Source: Nitrospiraceae bacterium
Lineage (GTDB): Bacteria > Nitrospirota > Nitrospiria > Nitrospirales > Nitrospiraceae
Direction of reading: 5' to 3'
DNA length: 57,526 nucleotides
Assembly: GCA_919902505.1 (NCBI GenBank)
Contig: CAKKRE010000013.1
Location: 1 to 57,526 of the forward strand
Shown piece after piece: positions 29,047-50,461 of this stretch; the stretch's first letter is position 1; each line of letters opens with the position of its first letter. The position numbers were made by a program, and so were the translations under genes. The notes beneath the pieces are model-generated. The model saw only the letters and a program-made list of their open reading frames with translations. It did no database searches and was not told where the DNA came from.

Positions 29047-31320
29047 GTGCACGATACTATGTATGATGGCACCGAGCAAGACCTGCTTCGTCTCCTCGCC
29101 TCACGGGCCGGTATTTCACCCGAATATCACGACATCGCCGGTACGCTCCACGTGACCAGTGACGACACGCGTCGAGCCATTCTGTCCGCCATGGGTTTTG
29201 AGGTCGGATCCAGCGAATTACTGGCCCAAGCACTGGTTGCTTTGGACGAGAAGCCCTGGCAACAACCCTGCGATCCGATCCTTATTCTCCAGCAAGGGTA
29301 TGGCCCCACGCAGTGGACATTCCGCCCTGCGCTGGAGGAAGGGGAGGAGCAACACGTCGCGGTAGCCTGGAATCTCACGGATGAACAAGGGACCATCGTT
29401 CATCGCGAAGAAACCAGCCCCGGCCTGAATCCATGCGAGGTCCGTTCGCTGGCCGGGCGGCGCATGGTGCGCGTTGAACTGCCGTTGGTTCAGAACCTGG
29501 CGCTCGGCTATTACGACTTGTCGGTCGTCACCATGGGCAGCAAGGTGGTGACCAGGGATACGCTCCGCGTGGTCGTGGCCCCGCCGCATTGTTTTGTGCC
29601 GGAGGAGATGGCTCGGGGCGGAAGGGTCTGGGGATTGGCGGTGCAGCTCTATTCGCTGCGGTCGCAGACCAATTGGGGCGTGGGTGACTTTACGGATTTG
29701 TCCCGGTTGGTCGAATGGGCAGGCAAGGAGCTGGGCGCCGGCATTATCGGCCTGAATCCGCTGCATGCGTTAAAAAACTCTCGTCCCCACCATCTCAGCC
29801 CCTATTCCCCGACCAGCCGGCTCTTTTTAAACGAGCTCTATATCGACCTCGATCGGCTTCCGGAGTATCACGCGTCGCCGGATGCGCAACGGCTGCGGGA
29901 CAGTGCAGAGTTCCAACAGGAACTGGAGCAGGCACGCGCCGCCGATCTGGTGGATTCCGAATCCGTGATCAAGGCGAAGCGCACGATGCTGGATCTCGCC
30001 TACCGTCAGTTTCTGAAGGATAACTATGCGGGAACTGAACCGTCGCTGGAGCCGACCACTGCGCGGGGGTGGCTGTTGCACCGGTTTATTCGGGACGAAG
30101 GAGAATCGCTGGAGCGGTTTGCGTTATTTCAGGTGCTGGAAGAGGAACGACGCCTGATCGAGCAGTCGCCCAGGCTTTGGCCCGAGTGGCCGGCACAGTA
30201 CCGGACTCCCGGTTCGCCGGCGCTGCGTGAATTTTCCAGACGGCATCGCAAGCGGGTCAGGTTTTTCCAATATATGCAGTGGGTGGCGGCGGATCAGTTG
30301 CGAGCGGCTAACACCCGGGCGGATCAGGTGCACATGACGGTCGGCTTGTATCCCGATCTTGCACTGGGGAGCGATCGCAACGGGGCCGAGGCCTGGATGC
30401 TGCAGGACGTGCTCGCGCTCGGTGCGGACTGCGGCGCGCCCCCGGACGCGTTTGCGCCGCAAGGGCAGAATTGGGGATTTGCTCCCTTTCATCCGCTACG
30501 CCTCAAGTCCACAGGCTATCGCTCGTTCATCGAGTTGCTCAGGAAAACGCTCCGGCAAGGCGGGGCGATCCGTATCGACCATGTCATGACGCTGTTCCGC
30601 CTGTTCTGGGTGCCGCGCGGGATGAGCGCAGAGGCGGGAGCCTATGTGCAGTATCCGGCCGAGGACCTGCTGCGGATTCTCGCGCTGGAAAGCATGCGTG
30701 CACAAACTCTCGTGATCGGAGAGGATTTGGGTACAGTGCCGGATTATGTGCGGGAACAGCTGGCGCGGTATAAGATTCTCTCCTATCGCGTGTTTTATTT
30801 CGAACGGAACTGGGATGGGTCCTGCAAGTCTCCGTCGGCCTATCCCGAGCAATCGCTCGCGGTCGTCACGACGCACGACCTTCCGACGCTGAGCGGGTAT
30901 TGGACGGGGGAAGATATTCGACTGCGGGCCAGGCTCGGCATGTATGCCGGCGACCAGGCCATACAGCAGGCCTTCGAGGAGCGCGCGCGCGACCGGGGGC
31001 ATATCCTTCGGGCCGTGAACGGGGCGGGGTTGTTGCCCTCCGGGGTGAGTGATCACCCTGACGCTGTTCCGGTGATGACGCCTGCTCTGTGCCGCGCGAT
31101 TCATGTCTACCTTGCGACGTCGCCGGCCTGGGTCGTCATGGCCAACCTTGACGATGTGATCGGTGAAGTGACACAAATGAATCTCCCGGGCACCGTGGAC
31201 GCCTATCCGAACTGGTCGCGCAAACTGTCGCTGTCTCTGGAGGAGCTCCAACGGGATGAACGCGTACAAGCACTCGCCGCAGCCGTGTGTACTCTCCGCC
31301 CTCCGGCTGCAACTGCCTAA
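29047..31320 (+). CDS. malQ: 4-alpha-glucanotransferase (GH77)
   Basis: 757 aa, close to the long bacterial MalQ form. It transfers alpha-1,4-glucan segments (maltodextrin/glycogen metabolism). The N-terminal ~200 residues form accessory domains, then the GH77 barrel starts (RVWGLAVQLYSLRSQTNWGV, then GIIGLNPLHAL). Catalytic regions: GAIRIDHVMTLFRLFW (nucleophile Asp), TLVIGEDLGTVPDYV (acid/base Glu) and TTHDLPTLSGYWTGED. The start is GTG at 29047 or ATG at 29059; the ribosome site is weak. The glucan phosphorylase at 50424-52583 would act on the same substrates. Confidence 0.95.
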   Translation: MHDTMYDGTEQDLLRLLASRAGISPEYHDIAGTLHVTSDDTRRAILSAMGFEVGSSELLAQALVALDEKPWQQPCDPILILQQGYGPTQWTFRPALEEGEEQHVAVAWNLTDEQGTIVHREETSPGLNPCEVRSLAGRRMVRVELPLVQNLALGYYDLSVVTMGSKVVTRDTLRVVVAPPHCFVPEEMARGGRVWGLAVQLYSLRSQTNWGVGDFTDLSRLVEWAGKELGAGIIGLNPLHALKNSRPHHLSPYSPTSRLFLNELYIDLDRLPEYHASPDAQRLRDSAEFQQELEQARAADLVDSESVIKAKRTMLDLAYRQFLKDNYAGTEPSLEPTTARGWLLHRFIRDEGESLERFALFQVLEEERRLIEQSPRLWPEWPAQYRTPGSPALREFSRRHRKRVRFFQYMQWVAADQLRAANTRADQVHMTVGLYPDLALGSDRNGAEAWMLQDVLALGADCGAPPDAFAPQGQNWGFAPFHPLRLKSTGYRSFIELLRKTLRQGGAIRIDHVMTLFRLFWVPRGMSAEAGAYVQYPAEDLLRILALESMRAQTLVIGEDLGTVPDYVREQLARYKILSYRVFYFERNWDGSCKSPSAYPEQSLAVVTTHDLPTLSGYWTGEDIRLRARLGMYAGDQAIQQAFEERARDRGHILRAVNGAGLLPSGVSDHPDAVPVMTPALCRAIHVYLATSPAWVVMANLDDVIGEVTQMNLPGTVDAYPNWSRKLSLSLEELQRDERVQALAAAVCTLRPPAATA

Positions 31321-31347
31321 ACTGTCCTCCCTGCGCGGCACGACATC

Positions 31348-32502
31348 GTGATGAAGAGCCGGAATCAGGTGGTCCTGGCTATCGCCGCAGTCCTCTTCCT
31401 CATCGTCATGGTGATGGAATGGATGTTCCCGCTGAATGTTGTCGGCGCATTCGGATTCGTGTTGCCCATTTTGCTGGTGGCCACCGTCAGAAACCGACGG
31501 CTCATGATCGTGACGCTGGCGCTGTGCATCCTGGTGACATTTGTCGGACTCTTCCAGCCGGCTAAGAAGCGGGAACGATTCACGGCCGTCGTGTTTAATC
31601 GCATCATGGTGGCCTGCGTATTGACCAGCGTGGCCTATATCGGCGTGACATGGGAGGAGCGGAAAGCCCGCGAAGAAGCCGCCAAGGCCGCGCTGGCGAC
31701 GCAAACCGAACACCTGTTGCTGGTGAATACGCAGCTGGTCGAGATTAAAGACAAGTTGGCGCGATCCGAACGGCTGGCTGCCGTGGGTCAGTTGGTGGCG
31801 TCGGTGGCGCATGAGGTCGGCACACCGTTACATTCGATTGCCTGGCATGTGGAAGCGTTGGCGGAGGAGCCCGGTGTCACCCCCGCGATGCAGAAACGAA
31901 TCGGTATTATCGATGAACAGTTGAATCGCGTGGTGCGGATCATTCAAGATCTCCTCTCGTCTACCCGGCAACGCAAACCTGAGCCGACATGGTATCCGGC
32001 CGAACGTCTGATCGAGCCGGTCGCGGCGTTGATGGAACCGGGATACCATGCCAAGGGCGTGGCACTTCAGACCGACGTGGCGCCGGCCCTGCTGGTGTGG
32101 GCCGATGCCGAAAAGATCCACCAAGTGTTGGTCAATCTCCTGAGCAATGCGCTGGCGGCCACCGGGGCGGGGGGCCATGTCACGGTCGCCGTGACCATTC
32201 GCCAGGCCTCCTCGGAGGAGATGGCGAGCGCGTCTTGCACAGGCCGGTCCGATCTCAGTACGGTGGTCACACTGGTGGTGAGTGATTCAGGCTGTGGAAT
32301 GCCTCGGGAGGATGTCGAGCGAGCCTTCCAACCGTTCTTCACGACGAAGGCGGTGGGTAAGGGCACCGGGTTAGGCTTATTTCTGAGCCGTGAGGCTGTG
32401 TGTGCTCACGGCGGCCGGTTGACACTCGAGAGTGAGATCGGCAAGGGCACGACGGTGACCGTGGTGCTGCCTGGTTTGCCGTCCGGCTCGGCTGCGGTAT
32501 AG
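31348..32502 (+). CDS. Membrane sensor histidine kinase
   Basis: 384 aa. About three membrane helices (VVLAIAAVLFLIVMVMEWMF, VLPILLVATV, LMIVTLALCILVTFVGLF) are followed by a coiled coil, HisKA (VASVAHEVGTPLHSIAWHVE, phospho-His in the H box) and HATPase_c (IHQVLVNLLSNALAATG, SDSGCGMPREDVERAF, GTGLGLFLSREAV). The sensor part is mostly membrane-embedded. The start is GTG 31348 or ATG 31351. It is followed after 21 bp by its likely partner, the sigma-54-dependent regulator, so it is probably an NtrB/AtoS-like pair. Stimulus unknown. Confidence 0.93.
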   Translation: MMKSRNQVVLAIAAVLFLIVMVMEWMFPLNVVGAFGFVLPILLVATVRNRRLMIVTLALCILVTFVGLFQPAKKRERFTAVVFNRIMVACVLTSVAYIGVTWEERKAREEAAKAALATQTEHLLLVNTQLVEIKDKLARSERLAAVGQLVASVAHEVGTPLHSIAWHVEALAEEPGVTPAMQKRIGIIDEQLNRVVRIIQDLLSSTRQRKPEPTWYPAERLIEPVAALMEPGYHAKGVALQTDVAPALLVWADAEKIHQVLVNLLSNALAATGAGGHVTVAVTIRQASSEEMASASCTGRSDLSTVVTLVVSDSGCGMPREDVERAFQPFFTTKAVGKGTGLGLFLSREAVCAHGGRLTLESEIGKGTTVTVVLPGLPSGSAAV

Positions 32503-32523
32503 CGGTATAGGAGAGGGAGAGTC

Positions 32524-33918
32524 ATGAGTCAGGCGAAGTTATTCGTAGTGGATGACGACGAGGCCGCCCGAACCTTGTTGGCGGAAGCGCTGGTGAAGGA
32601 GGGCTATGAGGTTGAGGCCTTCTCCAGCGGCCAGGCTGCGGTGGAGCGCGGCAAACAATCGCGGGCCGATGTCGTCCTGACCGATATCCGGATGGAACAA
32701 GGCGACGGATTTCTCGTGCTGAAGGAGTTCAAGAAGTTCAGCCAGGACACCTCGATCGTATTGCTGACCGCGTTCGGATCTCTGGAGGGCGCGATCGAAG
32801 CGATCAAGCAAGGGGCCTACGACTACTTGGCAAAGCCGTTTAAGAGGGACGAGATTCGTCTCGTCGTCCAGCGCAGTCTGGAGCATTGTCGCCTGGTGCG
32901 GGAAAACGCCCGCTTTCGGGAAGATGCGCGGGTACGCGAACCCTGGTCCCAGTTGGTCGGCAGCAGTCCGGCGATGCTGGAGGTGTATAAGCTGGTGGCC
33001 CGCGTTTCTGAGGGGCGAAGCACCGTGCTTATTGAAGGGGAAAGCGGGACCGGAAAGGAACTGATTGCGCGGGCCGTCCATTCGAACAGTCTGCGTCGCG
33101 GCAAACCGTTCATTCCAGTCAATTGCGGCGCCTTGCCCGATCATCTCCTGGAGTCGGAAATGTTCGGGTATGAGAAGGGCGCGTTTACGGGAGCCGTCGG
33201 GGCCAAAGCCGGGCTGTTCGAGGCCGCCGATGGCGGCACGCTGTTTCTCGATGAGATCGGCGATCTCGGCCAGTCGCTTCAGGTCAAGCTCTTGCGGGTG
33301 ATGCAGGAACAGGAAGTGCGGCGTGTCGGCAGTACGGCATCGGTGAAAGTCGATGTGCGCATCATTGCCGCGACCAATCGGGACTTGGCCACGCTCGTGA
33401 AGGAAGGGAAGTTTCGCGACGACTTATACTATCGTCTCAATGTGGTGCGGATTGTTCTGCCGTCCCTGGCGGAGCGGCGTGAGGACATCACGATGCTCGC
33501 GCATCACTTTCTGCAAAAATACGCCAAGCAGTCGTTGCATGTGAGGGGATTTTTACCGGAAACGATGGCGCTGTTGAAGCGCTATCAGTGGCCGGGGAAT
33601 GTGCGCGAATTGGAGAATGCCGTGGAGCGGGCGGTCTCGCTCAGCCATGGCCCGCTGTTGCTTCCCGAAGATCTTCCCGAATCGATCAGGGCTGAGCCGG
33701 ATTCAGGTGAGCTCCTCAAGGGGCAACCCGCCGAGGGGGATCAGGACGCGCTGTTGACCTTAGATGAGGTTGAAAAGCGGCATCTGGCGCGTGTACTCAA
33801 AGAAACGCGGGGAAACAAGGTCAAGGCGGCGAAGATTCTGGGGATCGATCGGCGGACGTTATATCGGATGGCGGAGCGATTCGGATTGGATTTCGGCGAT
33901 GAGGCCGAGGAGAAGTAA
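32524..33918 (+). CDS. Sigma-54-dependent response regulator (NtrC family)
   Basis: 464 aa. Receiver ([18 protein letters not shown]; acceptor Asp in [15 protein letters not shown] lysine in [10 protein letters not shown]). AAA+ domain with Walker [18 protein letters not shown], the sigma-54-contacting loop [10 protein letters not shown], Walker [14 protein letters not shown] and the sensor [12 protein letters not shown] Fis-type helix-turn-helix closes the protein ([20 protein letters not shown]). It activates sigma-54 promoters after phosphorylation by the preceding kinase. GGAGAGGGAGAG lies before the ATG. Its targets are not visible here. Confidence 0.96.
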
Positions 33919-33925
33919 GACGATC

Positions 33926-34372
33926 CTACAACAATCGAAGCGCGTTCTTGAGCAGGCGAATTTCATTTGCCGCGCTCTGTGGCAGCGGCGTTTCCGCATC
34001 TTCCCACGAATCGAAGATCCCGTTTTTCCCGCGATGGAACACTTGCAGCCGTAATCGGGTGCTGCTGTCGTCTTGCGGAATGACACGGGCCTCCACTCGA
34101 CTCTTGCCCACGCCGAACCTCCAGCGCAAGAGGCCGTTCCACGGGCTTCTGATCTCTGTGCGCATGCCGGTCGTGAGATTCCCGGCGTCATCCTGGTCGA
34201 CTGTGTAGCCCCCTTGGGTCAGGACATCGGACAGTGCCGTTTTCACCTGTTCGGCAGGAACCGGAAGTATCACCTCCATCACATCGGGCTCCGGGGCGGG
34301 TGGGCCGCCCGCACATCCGGCGAGCGCCGAGACGAGCACGAACGCCGCGATGCCAGAGACACGAGTTCTCAT
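33926..34372 (-). CDS. Lipoprotein of unknown function
   Basis: 148 aa. The lipobox is at VLVSALAGCAGG. A conserved-looking alpha/beta domain follows (VMEVILPVPAEQVKTALSDV, then SRVEARVIPQDDSSTRLRLQ). The fold looks like small outer-membrane NlpB/BamC-like domains, but this is only an impression. The start overlaps the stop of the upstream RAM-domain gene by 4 bp, so they are cotranscribed. The convergent NtrC-family gene ends 7 bp away. Confidence 0.7.
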   Translation of the reverse strand: MRTRVSGIAAFVLVSALAGCAGGPPAPEPDVMEVILPVPAEQVKTALSDVLTQGGYTVDQDDAGNLTTGMRTEIRSPWNGLLRWRFGVGKSRVEARVIPQDDSSTRLRLQVFHRGKNGIFDSWEDAETPLPQSAANEIRLLKNALRLL

Positions 34373-34623
34373 TTTGGCTTGCCCTCCTGAAGGCGATAGA
34401 CCATGTGCGTATCGGTTTGATCGACACCGGGGATGGCGTGAATTTTCGCGAGCACGAGTTGGGTCAGTGCGTCCTGATGGGGAATTTCAACGATGGTGAA
34501 GATGTCGGGCTTTCCCCAACAGGGGTCGATTTGTTTGATTTCCTTAATATCCCCAAGGGCTTTGACGACATCAGCGGTGTGGCCGGGATGCACGTTGATC
34601 AATACGTAGGCTCGGTCCGGCAT
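34369..34623 (-). CDS. Stand-alone Lrp/AsnC-type ligand-binding (RAM) domain protein
   Basis: 84 aa with the RAM fold pattern of Lrp C-termini (RAYVLINVHPGHTADVVKAL, then DIFTIVEIPHQDALTQLVLA). There is no helix-turn-helix, so it cannot bind DNA alone. Stand-alone RAM proteins bind amino acids or modulate partners. It is coupled to the lipoprotein gene by a 4-bp overlap. Ribosome site: GGGAG. Confidence 0.8.
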   Translation of the reverse strand: MPDRAYVLINVHPGHTADVVKALGDIKEIKQIDPCWGKPDIFTIVEIPHQDALTQLVLAKIHAIPGVDQTDTHMVYRLQEGKPK

Positions 34624-34749: not shown

Positions 34750-36444
34750 TTACTTGGGAGCCACGATGACTTCTACTCTGTACGTGTCCCCGACTGTCGA
34801 AAGATCTGCTTCTAACCCTCGGGGGTTGCCCACTCGCCCGTCAGGATCGTAGATGAAGCACAACAACGTGGCTCCGTTCGGACGCCCGGAGTAATGGGCT
34901 TTGTCTGTGGCGATCTGCTCGGCGATGTCTCTGCTCGTCAATCCTGAGCGGGTCTGTTTGACCACCACCACCGTTTTTTCCCAGTCGAGGAGATAACTCG
35001 TCCGGCGAGCACCGTTGGCATAGGGCGGGGTCCATTCTTCCGTGCCCACCTCATCGAATTGTAACCGGAGAAGTGCGTAAAACAGGTCCTGCAGATCGTA
35101 CTCGTCCGTGATCTCCAGTGTAGGCCGGTATTCTTTTCGCAGCCGCAGTTGTCGAGCGACCAGGTGGAAGCGCGCACACATTCGGCGGAGTGTGTCGAGC
35201 GTTGCGCCCTCCGATTGAGGATGGTTCATATTCGTAGCCCGCGGCGTTGTGAGTACCGTTGGTGTGTCTGGCGGTTTGACGGGAGATATGAGCGGCGGTT
35301 CCGGCTTGGACTCGGGGACTGATGCGAGCGCGGGCATTGCTGGTGGGAGCGATACCTCGGTTCGAACTTGGGGAGCGGGTGGTCGAGGGTCGCGCGCTTG
35401 TTTTTCTACTGTTATCTCGGTTGTGGCTTGGCGTGCCGGAATCACCGCGACGGGGGCTGGAGCCGGTTTTTGTGCCGGGATGTCTGTTGGCTTGGAGTCC
35501 TGCTGAAGTGTCGGAGGGGGCTCGATAGGGGCAGCCGGCACAGGTGCCGGGGCGGGATTCATTCGTGGAATGGGGGGAATGGTTCCCGATGGAATAGTGG
35601 CCCGCGCCGGCGCCATTGTCGGTAGTGGTGTTGGGGCGGCCTCGCCGCGCACGGTCTGCTCCGAGGGCGTTGCGCTATTCGTAGATGGCGCGGCAACAAC
35701 AGGTTCTGTGGGCAGTGACGGTGAAGCGGGCAGGGATGCCGGCGCAGTTTTCTCAGCCGGGATCCCGGGGGCTTCAGATGTTACGGAGTGCAGCGGGGGC
35801 AGGCGTTGTATCGATGTATCGCGAATCGGTTGTGAGGCGGTCCCTGGGGTGACCGGTGGGGAGGCGGAAGTGGTCGAGAGGGGTGTTGTCGTAACGATCG
35901 GAGCGATGGGCTGAGCGGGGTGGCTGACGCTCGTCGTCGCTACGGAGACGGTTGCCGGAGCGTTGGTCATACTGACGGTTGCGGGGGGGGCGGTGCTCGG
36001 AGCCTGGGGTGGCGCGACTGGAACAGTGGGTTGACTCGGAGGAACTGCCGTCAGCGTGGGGCGATCAAGGGCTGCCGGTGGAGGGGGCGCGGTTTCGGCT
36101 GGTGTGAGGCCCAAAAGCTCAGCCTTCTGATTCTCCAGCGCGACGATCAATTCTTTGAGCAGCGTGGTGCTCTGTGCAGACTCCGTGCGATTGCCGATTC
36201 GGAGTTTGTGATTCTTGTGTGCCTGGTATTCCGGTGACTTTTCACCGAACAATCGCCGGATCGTTTCGCGAAAGGACAGTTCGGTTCTGGCGCGGACTGC
36301 GTCACGATAGGGGAAGCCATCTCTGCTCAGGTCATCGATTTGTGTGCTTAGTTCACGCAACGTGGTGATGCCGCGGTTGAGTTCTTCGACGGCGTGCTGT
36401 TTCGACCGGGATCGTTGCGGTTCGCTTGCTTTCGTTCGTGCCAT
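34750..36444 (-). CDS. Large Pro/Ala/Thr-rich linker protein with C-terminal DpnII/MboI-like nuclease fold, catalytic acids apparently lost
   Basis: 564 aa. Residues 1-115 are helical (RGITTLRELSTQIDDLSRDG, FPYRDAVRARTELSFRETIR, RLFGEKSPEYQAHKNHK), similar to domains that accompany REase-type proteins. About 117-400 is a low-complexity Pro/Ala/Thr/Val linker. The last ~155 residues match the DpnII/MboI-type PD-(D/E)xK fold (FHLVARQLRLRKEYRPTLEI, TDEYDLQDLFYALLRLQFDE, LLCFIYDPDGRVGNPRGLEA). From family memory the active strand pair reads about RxDFLL then VEVKxTR; here it is RRTSYLLDWEK then VVVVKQTR, so Asp is Ser and Glu is Val while Lys remains. Likely a non-cutting nucleic-acid or regulatory protein. 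No restriction methylase is nearby. Confidence 0.75.
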   Translation of the reverse strand: MARTKASEPQRSRSKQHAVEELNRGITTLRELSTQIDDLSRDGFPYRDAVRARTELSFRETIRRLFGEKSPEYQAHKNHKLRIGNRTESAQSTTLLKELIVALENQKAELLGLTPAETAPPPPAALDRPTLTAVPPSQPTVPVAPPQAPSTAPPATVSMTNAPATVSVATTSVSHPAQPIAPIVTTTPLSTTSASPPVTPGTASQPIRDTSIQRLPPLHSVTSEAPGIPAEKTAPASLPASPSLPTEPVVAAPSTNSATPSEQTVRGEAAPTPLPTMAPARATIPSGTIPPIPRMNPAPAPVPAAPIEPPPTLQQDSKPTDIPAQKPAPAPVAVIPARQATTEITVEKQARDPRPPAPQVRTEVSLPPAMPALASVPESKPEPPLISPVKPPDTPTVLTTPRATNMNHPQSEGATLDTLRRMCARFHLVARQLRLRKEYRPTLEITDEYDLQDLFYALLRLQFDEVGTEEWTPPYANGARRTSYLLDWEKTVVVVKQTRSGLTSRDIAEQIATDKAHYSGRPNGATLLCFIYDPDGRVGNPRGLEADLSTVGDTYRVEVIVAPK

Positions 36445-36552
36445 GCGTGCTGTCCCTCTGTTGAGAAAAGTCTATCCAAGCGGGTGATGTCTGGCAAGAA
36501 ATCCCTGCTTCTTCCCGTGAGTCGGGAGGCGCGGGGACGGGTGCGCGGGCGG

Positions 36553-47726: not shown

Positions 47727-48557
47727 ATGGAACACACTGGTGAAAAAGAAGAACAGGCCCAGGCTGTTTCCCCCATTAGTCAGGTTGAGGATGAGACTTT
47801 GACAGATCAGGTCTCGGATCAACTGGCCGCGTCCTTGGAATCTTCGGCAGGGGCCCAGGACCTCACTGATCCATTGCAGGAAGTGGTTCTTGAGGAGGAG
47901 CAGGTCAAGGACGAGATCGATATTCAAATCGATCTTCTCAAAGACCCTGATTGGGTGGTTAGGCGGGAAGCCGCAATCACGCTGGGGGAAATGGGCGATG
48001 AGCGTTGCGTCGAACCGCTCGCTGCGGCTCTTCGCGATGGTGACTGGCAGGTGCGGGAAGTTGCGATTGAGGGGATCGGGCAGATCGGTTCTCCTGCCGT
48101 CGAGGTGTTGCTTAAGTTGCTCAGAGATTGGGATGTGCGGAAGTCCGCAATCATGGCTCTGGGGAAAATTCGTGATGAACGGGTGCTCGAGCCTCTGATG
48201 CAACAGCTCCGAAATGATGAGTTCATGGAGGATGCCACCGATGCCTTGGTTAATCTTGGTGAGCCGGCTCTGCCTGGTCTGATCAAGGCGTTGAAAGACA
48301 AAGAAGAGTTAGTGCGGAAGCAAGCGGTGATTGCGTTGGGGCGGATTAAGTCTTCCGAAGCCATCGATCCGCTGATTGAAATGTTGCAGAATAAGGACTG
48401 GTTCACTCGGCTGACAGCTGCCGCGGCACTTGAAGCTATCGGTGATGAGCGTGGTCGCGAAGCGATCAAGCCGTTGCTGAAAGACAGTGATATGGTGGTC
48501 AAGATGCGAGTCGAGCGCATTCTTGCAAAGTGGAAGAAGCAACCGGCCGCTGTTTAG
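47727..48557 (+). CDS. HEAT-repeat protein
   Basis: 276-aa soluble protein. After an acidic N-terminal 65 residues come about five HEAT/PBS-lyase-type repeats (DPDWVVRREAAITLGEMGDE, CVEPLAAALRDGDWQVREVA, DWDVRKSAIMALGKIRDERV, DKEELVRKQAVIALGRIKSS, NKDWFTRLTAAAALEAIGDE). Such repeats form protein-binding solenoids. There is no catalytic motif. It probably has a scaffold role. Neighbours include another HEAT protein on the opposite strand. Confidence 0.88.
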   Translation: MEHTGEKEEQAQAVSPISQVEDETLTDQVSDQLAASLESSAGAQDLTDPLQEVVLEEEQVKDEIDIQIDLLKDPDWVVRREAAITLGEMGDERCVEPLAAALRDGDWQVREVAIEGIGQIGSPAVEVLLKLLRDWDVRKSAIMALGKIRDERVLEPLMQQLRNDEFMEDATDALVNLGEPALPGLIKALKDKEELVRKQAVIALGRIKSSEAIDPLIEMLQNKDWFTRLTAAAALEAIGDERGREAIKPLLKDSDMVVKMRVERILAKWKKQPAAV

Positions 48558-49015: not shown

Positions 49016-50461
49016 CTAGCGGGCGCTCCCTTGTTTATCTTTTCGAGACAACACGTGAATGAGGCTACCTGCGGAAGCAATGCGAACCGTGGGATCCGAA
49101 TCTTGGAGACCGGTTTTTAGAGGGGAGATGAGGGATTTCAGTTGTAGTTTGCCCAGCGCCCGTGCGGCCATAAGTCGTGGAAGTGGCTGCTGGTCTCGAA
49201 GTAAGCGTTCAAGCACGGCCAGGGCATTGGAAGTGGTTGCGGCCGCCAGGGCATGCGCAGCACCGCCACGTACTGAAGGATCAGGATGTCGGGCGAGGTC
49301 TGCGGCATTCAGAACTGCGCTGGCATCACCCAGTCTGAGGAGAGCCTCGACGGCGCTGATACGGACATGCTCATCGGGGTCTCGCAATAGTGGTTGGACA
49401 ACGCTACGAGTTTCAGTGGCGCCAAGTCGGCCGAGACTGGAAGCGGCGACACTACGGACGCGCGGATTCTCATCACTCAGAGCGTGTGTCAGTGGAGCGA
49501 TCCCGTCGGTGCTACCGAATTCTCCTAGAGCCCCCGCTGCGAAGGCACGGACTGCTGGATGGGGATCGTAGACGGCTTGGCTCAAGATCGACAGGCTGGC
49601 AGGTCGGCGCAATCGTCCGAGCATACCCAGTGCTGCCATACGGACCTCAGGGTCGGGGAGCGTGACGGCATTGGAGATGTCGGTCAGGACGTCCGTTCGC
49701 CCGAGTTTGTACAATCCCGCGAAGGCAAAAATGGATTCCGGGCCCTCATCGACGCGGGCGATTTCGGTGAGTTGATCCGTTATGCCGGCGACTTTGGCAT
49801 CACTGAGGGCATTGATCGCCGCAATGCGAACGCCGGGCGCCTCGTCGCGTAGCGCTCGTTTGAGCGCCGAGGAGCGTCCGGCCAGACCGGCTCGTCCAAT
49901 GGCTTCGGCGGCGCGAGCGCGAACGAGCGCCGATGAATCCAGCAGGCCGTCTTCAAGGATCGGTAACGTGTCGCTTTCGCCCATTTCCGCCAGCGCCGTA
50001 TAGGCAGCAATGCGGATATGTTCCTGAGTATCACGGACACGAGTCACAATAAAACTTCGTGCAATGTCCCGCAGTACTGCTGGTTCGTCTGGACGATTAT
50101 TCGCAACGAGTGTGGTGTAGAGCTTCCAGGCCTCTTCAGGCTTTCCAAGCTTGAGGTGACTCAGAATGCCATAACGTAGGAGTTCCAACGCTGGTTGTTG
50201 ACCAGTGGGTATCTGCTGGAGTAGCTCCAGCACGCGATTGTATTCTGCCGCTTGGTAAAGGGTCATCGCCTGGCGTTCGAGTTGGGTGACGGCGGGCTTA
50301 GGAGATGGTGGGGCTGCCGTTGCCGGGTAGGGGGCGGCCCACGCGAGCAGCACAAGTCCAGCCGGAAGTATCCAGGTGGCGCATCGGCGGCCTCGCGGGA
50401 GACTGGGCCCAGGTCCGATCACGCTACCACTTGTTCGGGGTGCGCGCGGTGGCCGGTGCAT
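49016..50461 (-). CDS. Exported HEAT-repeat protein
   Basis: 481 aa. A signal-like segment (WILPAGLVLLAWAAPYPATA) follows ~30 basic residues, then a helical N-terminal part (AMTLYQAAEYNRVLELLQQI, TPR-like) and then about ten HEAT repeats (DTLPILEDGLLDSSALVRAR, DPHPAVRAFAAGALGEFGST, DENPRVRSVAASSLGRLGAT, DPDEHVRISAVEALLRLGDA). A periplasmic or membrane-attached solenoid scaffold. The start overlaps the end of the phosphorylase gene by 38 bp; a later start after the Arg-rich leader is possible. Confidence 0.82.
   Translation of the reverse strand: MHRPPRAPRTSGSVIGPGPSLPRGRRCATWILPAGLVLLAWAAPYPATAAPPSPKPAVTQLERQAMTLYQAAEYNRVLELLQQIPTGQQPALELLRYGILSHLKLGKPEEAWKLYTTLVANNRPDEPAVLRDIARSFIVTRVRDTQEHIRIAAYTALAEMGESDTLPILEDGLLDSSALVRARAAEAIGRAGLAGRSSALKRALRDEAPGVRIAAINALSDAKVAGITDQLTEIARVDEGPESIFAFAGLYKLGRTDVLTDISNAVTLPDPEVRMAALGMLGRLRRPASLSILSQAVYDPHPAVRAFAAGALGEFGSTDGIAPLTHALSDENPRVRSVAASSLGRLGATETRSVVQPLLRDPDEHVRISAVEALLRLGDASAVLNAADLARHPDPSVRGGAAHALAAATTSNALAVLERLLRDQQPLPRLMAARALGKLQLKSLISPLKTGLQDSDPTVRIASAGSLIHVLSRKDKQGSAR

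Follow-up and report, generated by a model that had tools for sequence, protein, structure and literature searches.

A degenerate PF18742 nuclease-like protein conserved across the Nitrospiraceae, probably domesticated from a defence-type helical-REase

Introduction

Why would a family of bacteria keep a nuclease domain whose active site has been lost? The question is raised by a gene in a 57,526-nucleotide stretch of DNA from a member of the Nitrospiraceae, the whole of which is referred to here as the window. The gene is read on the minus strand, from position 36444 to position 34750 (exact coordinates), and encodes a protein with two folded ends and a long linker in between (Table 1). To judge from its sequence, the present protein is a pseudonuclease that presumably no longer cleaves nucleic acids. 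Literature searches returned nothing on the protein or, by name, on PF18742, the family to which its C-terminal domain belongs.

Table 1. Features of the gene and its surroundings in the window
Feature	Position	Strand	Basis or remark
CDS, 564 aa: helical N-terminal domain, low-complexity linker, degenerate PF18742 PD-(D/E)XK domain	34750..36444	-	ORF and Pfam scan
N-terminal helical domain, residues 15-115	36100..36402	-	Conserved, omega 0.05-0.12; distant kin: N-terminal domain of intact helical-REase proteins
Pro/Ala/Thr/Ser-rich linker, residues 116-414	35203..36099	-	omega about 0.46-0.78; 44-310 aa across orthologues
C-terminal PF18742 domain, residues 415-564, predicted PD-(D/E)XK fold	34753..35202	-	omega about 0.035-0.13
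Ser483, catalytic Asp position	34996..34998	-	Alignment with intact relatives
Val494, catalytic Glu position	34963..34965	-	Alignment with intact relatives
Lys496, catalytic Lys position, kept in the window protein	34957..34959	-	Alignment
GAGGG, Shine-Dalgarno-like, 9 nt before the ATG of the 564-aa gene	36454..36458	-	Direct sequence reading
Stand-alone Lrp/AsnC ligand-binding (RAM) domain, 84 aa, next gene downstream	34369..34623	-	Syntenic across the family
Lipoprotein-like gene after the RAM gene	33926..34372	-	Syntenic
Convergent block malQ - histidine kinase - sigma-54 response regulator	29047..33918	+	Syntenic locus marker

Architecture of the protein

A preliminary description, made from the letters of the window, had proposed a DpnII/MboI-like C-terminus, and this is borne out by the sole Pfam match of the protein at E-values up to 1: PF18742 (DpnII-MboI) at residues 418–564, with an E-value of 8.3e-52 and a score of 175 bits (cut-off 27), covering positions 2–150 of the 150 in the profile. 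The label appears to be just Pfam's name for the family, with no tie to GATC recognition. The PADLOC model Aga_Helical-REase also matches the C-terminal domain (E = 2.9e-22), and the PADLOC helical-REase models cover residues 406–562 only of the protein. No NCBIfam model matches the protein, nor did searching the PDB with its sequence alone return any match. The family profile matches the nuclease domain of EcbAgaN (PDB 23wq) with an E-value of 6.6e-7, and the D and E of EcbAgaN align to the positions that are altered in the window protein.

The AF2 model of the C-terminal domain (pLDDT 92.4) has strands at local residues 53–57, 67–72, 77–83, 112–118 and 142–148. Ser483 lies in the second strand and Val494 and Lys496 in the third, which are the usual places of the D and the ExK in PD-(D/E)XK proteins. 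The best VIA structural neighbours of the domain include CdiA-CT, BglII, BstYI and BamHI, at Z scores of 6–8, where a Z under about 8 is on its own little proof; a Foldseek search of the domain against the PDB gave no significant match. From profile and model, the domain is predicted to have a PD-(D/E)XK fold. Its net charge is about -1 to -2, compared with -1 to -8 in intact relatives; the domain is not basic, so that its charge gives no hint of DNA binding.

The N-terminal helical domain that the preliminary description had seen is recovered as a four-helix arrangement in the AF2 model (pLDDT 83). A fold search returned generic helical bundles only, with no specific structural match, and no fold is therefore claimed for it; a Pfam scan of the domain gave chance matches only.

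The linker had been described as about 285 residues rich in Pro, Ala, Thr and Val. A long low-complexity linker is indeed present, but it measures 299 residues and Ser, not Val, is among its four richest residues (P 24%, A 15%, T 13%, S 9%, V 7%). Among the orthologues it ranges from 44 residues in deep lineages to 310, with a stable composition (P 24, A 14, S 12 and T 11%). A recent tandem expansion was rejected as its origin, repeats inside the gene being minor. Promoter and terminator scans were near chance or uninformative.

Loss of the catalytic residues

Alignment with intact relatives confirmed that the active-site Asp is replaced by Ser and the Glu by Val, with the Lys kept, as had been read from the window alone. 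The loss extends to the whole orthologue group: D, E and K occur together in none of 96 orthologues, among which there are 24 residue combinations. The commonest states (given in the order of the D, E and K positions) are TVK (27) and SVK (23), and deep-branching genera have the partial lesions YEK, GER, DQK, DTR, DSR, DIK, DVK and DVI. Graded intermediates are thereby found at one locus, with D only, E only, neither, or the Lys also lost, the last being replaced by Q, I or R in several orthologues. Degeneracy of the site in every orthologue examined is far beyond chance.

About 29 relatives that do not belong to this orthologue group, from prophage, plasmid, cyanobacterial and proteobacterial sources and from Candidatus Nitrospira defluvii, keep D, E and K wherever these are readable. 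They comprise 17 proteins that include the N. defluvii paralogue (L119/L031) and its counterpart in another genome (G025), together with three plasmid proteins and nine viral-contig proteins, two of the latter appearing identical to a plasmid protein. Within the family, intact close paralogues occur in just 2 of 175 genomes, G025 and that of N. defluvii (G001), a member of the same genus as the window genome.

Distribution and genomic context

PF18742 matches are present in 146 of 175 Nitrospiraceae species and in 101 of the 114 good-quality genomes, compared with 7 genomes of 398 and 10 of 292 in two other phyla. In the genus of the window genome, 28 of the 29 genomes match the protein, G025 solely through its intact paralogue. 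Wherever the flank suffices, the gene is found in the same block, in which malQ, the histidine kinase and the sigma-54 regulator converge on the lipoprotein, RAM and PF18742 genes. Two copies in genus g145 (L162, G1012:C174, and L164, G1007:C81) depart from this pattern, each being a second, non-syntenic two-domain copy with the D kept and the E changed to V. The gene is a near-universal, syntenic and vertically inherited core gene of the family Nitrospiraceae. It is absent from genus g3 and from the streamlined g4 genomes, where the rest of the block is kept (among genomes whose block was fetched), and is hence not indispensable. The RAM protein is 90–99% identical within the genus of the window genome and is retained even where the dead nuclease gene is missing.

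The scanned neighbours (malQ, histidine kinase, response regulators, RAM, lipoprotein-like and DUF4340/ABC proteins) are housekeeping or regulatory, with no DNA methyltransferase or clear defence gene among them. PADLOC matches elsewhere in the window were of the HEAT-repeat type only; those at 47727–48557 and 49016–50461 are weak (HEAT-ARM_XIII) and belong to HEAT-repeat-like proteins, probably generic repeats.

Gene tree and selection

In two gene trees, built without the three catalytic columns, the orthologues form one clade (support 100/99 and 100/98), and the gene tree matches the tree of the neighbouring genes at the deep forks. On the gene tree, D was lost at least 2–3 times and E at least 3–5 times, counts that assume irreversibility and whose range depends on how strictly weak branches are collapsed; the sampling of orthologues is uneven by genus. 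Pairwise NG86 omega values of the window gene against nine orthologues are 0.05–0.12 for the N-terminal domain, 0.46–0.78 for the linker and 0.035–0.13 for the C-terminal domain. The dead domain is therefore under as much constraint as would be expected of a functional protein.

Relationship to helical-REases

The closest known proteins are the PF18742 helical-REases (PADLOC Aga_Helical-REase, class II), which share the sequence and fold of the C-terminal domain, the two-part layout with a helical N-terminal domain, and the motifs DEYDxQDL, YDPxGR and KxTR. However, the helical-REases examined keep D, E and K, whereas the Nitrospiraceae protein is degenerate; most close ones are about 260–285 aa without a long linker, compared with open frames of about 320–640 aa with one; and they are patchy or mobile, while the Nitrospiraceae gene is a fixed core gene. 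Homology between the N-terminal domains is weak, with an HH probability of 1–20%, but the hhalign score of 24.8 exceeds the maximum of 18.8 in 60 column shuffles. The best-scoring orthologue in this comparison is a deep-branching one (L110). Overall, there is moderate support for common descent of the whole two-domain protein with the intact helical-REases.

Within the phylum, the N-terminal domain turned up only in copies of this protein, except in one Nitrospiraceae genome (G086), where a relative of it (L174, G086:C6, at about 33.6 kb) is fused to Hypoth_Ymh (PF09509). This fusion suggests that the helical domain is perhaps common to several effector types. A weak match in another genome (G196, E = 0.001) proved false, the sequence being citramalate/isopropylmalate-synthase-like.

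EcbAgaN, a short-Argonaute-associated protein grouped with the SPARDA DREN-APAZ effectors, is related through its nuclease domain. It differs from the Nitrospiraceae protein in keeping D and E (RIDLYLPSLHTIIEVK) and in its association with an Argonaute, none of which was found in the Nitrospiraceae genomes searched.

The intact relatives are mobile, being found in more than 200 plasmid records and on viral contigs. One of them, on a Klebsiella plasmid (L176, NZ_CP132684.1, 71.8–77.6 kb), is located inside what looks like a filamentous-phage module, next to genes of that type (replication II/X, Zot, GspD-like), and so may be cargo carried by a phage. On many enterobacterial plasmids (records H3–H18 and others), intact PF18742 genes are annotated as "malate dehydrogenase", apparently a propagated error.

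Discussion

If the protein no longer cuts, several roles could account for its retention, and it could also have stayed an enzyme. An active nuclease with a migrated acid, in which an acid outside the two catalytic strands, such as E558 or E438, rebuilt the metal site and left D and E free to vary, would fit the near-universal presence of these two residues (acidic in 98–99% of orthologues and in 0–11% of intact relatives) and the retention of K496 in most orthologues. There is precedent for migrated residues among pseudoenzymes (PMC10211241). A search for displaced acids found none gained within the two active-site strands, and the lineage-specific E438 and E558 lie elsewhere. E558 belongs to the C-terminal strand (local residues 142–148); in the typical core arrangement, this strand forms the edge of the sheet farthest from the two strands that bear the active site. 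With the Lys itself lost in several orthologues as well, a rebuilt enzyme is very improbable. Simple decay, as a pseudogene or neutral remnant, would account for the lost residues and for the clean absence of the gene from streamlined genomes, but it is refuted by the omega of 0.035–0.13 in the dead domain, and it sits badly with the long open frames in the orthologues that were read and with the kept synteny and N-terminal domain; we give it almost no credence.

A role in defence could take two forms. As an antidote or decoy, the dead protein would form mixed oligomers with incoming intact helical-REases, or compete with them, and so protect the cell. Such intruders are at hand, the plasmids that carry them being mostly conjugative and others lying on prophage contigs; the N. 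defluvii genome has an intact relative alongside the dead gene, and the dead domain is roughly 42–57% identical to close intact relatives. The scarcity of intact paralogues in the family, set against a near-universal dead gene under constant strong selection, makes this quite unlikely, and the link to a helical N-terminal domain and a long linker would be left unexplained. As a sensor or adaptor that does not cut but works within an antiphage system, the protein would have a precedent in the inactive PIWI of short pAgos (PMC12205087). The closest named models are those of defence families, and the N-terminal domain is also paired with the effector-like Hypoth_Ymh. Against this stand the fixed locus, vertical inheritance and housekeeping neighbours, as defence genes are normally patchy. 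No defence gene is clearly adjacent among the neighbours scanned, and Argonaute/PIWI (PF02171) is absent from all 118 family genomes searched, including the window genome, on which ground a short pAgo partner was rejected. The antiphage or DNA-sensing complex suggested in the preliminary description is thus not supported for a core gene of a housekeeping block, and we regard a sensor role as unlikely.

The explanation that we prefer, and consider probable, is that a defence-type helical-REase was domesticated and inactivated in parallel and now serves as a non-cutting, tethered binding protein. Its ancestor would have been a two-domain effector, with a helical N-terminal domain and a PF18742 PD-(D/E)XK nuclease, of the kind still carried by plasmids and prophages. 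It would have become fixed upstream of the gene for the RAM domain ahead of the radiation of most Nitrospiraceae, and its descendants lost the catalytic Asp, Glu or both several times in parallel. The linker, probably disordered and rich in Pro, Ala, Ser and Thr, would have lengthened between the folded ends, both of which are held by strong purifying selection. The dead C-terminal domain most likely binds what its ancestor acted on, nucleic acid, or else a protein partner, and does so without cleavage; the N-terminal domain would most likely serve for oligomerisation or for docking of a second partner, and the linker would tether the two. Binding of nucleic acid without cutting, as proposed from the window alone, is plausible in view of the kept fold and motifs, from which we infer it. 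We favour a part in regulation or in nucleoid/housekeeping functions over one in defence.

Other domesticated pseudonucleases and pseudoenzymes, such as CPSF-100 (PMC10211241), have likewise lost catalytic residues while keeping the fold, presumably in a non-catalytic role, but in the Nitrospiraceae the loss was repeated within one syntenic bacterial locus.

To our knowledge, defence nucleases have often been suggested to turn into non-cutting host proteins, but the process has rarely been observed under way. In the present case, one locus in well over 100 species offers graded intermediates together with intact mobile relatives, and N. defluvii has an intact relative and a dead copy in the same genome, so that the question of why a dead nuclease is kept becomes directly testable. 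The finding is also a warning that domain-based annotation or defence finders could label a pseudonuclease as a nuclease, and it draws attention to an uncharacterised protein that is conserved in the main nitrite-oxidising bacteria. In its fullest form, which we put forward tentatively, a mobile antiviral nuclease would have been domesticated once, in an ancestor shared by most Nitrospiraceae, its site destroyed independently at least three times and its fold frozen, to yield a new tethered regulator, binding nucleic acids or partners, that may define this lineage of nitrite-oxidising bacteria.
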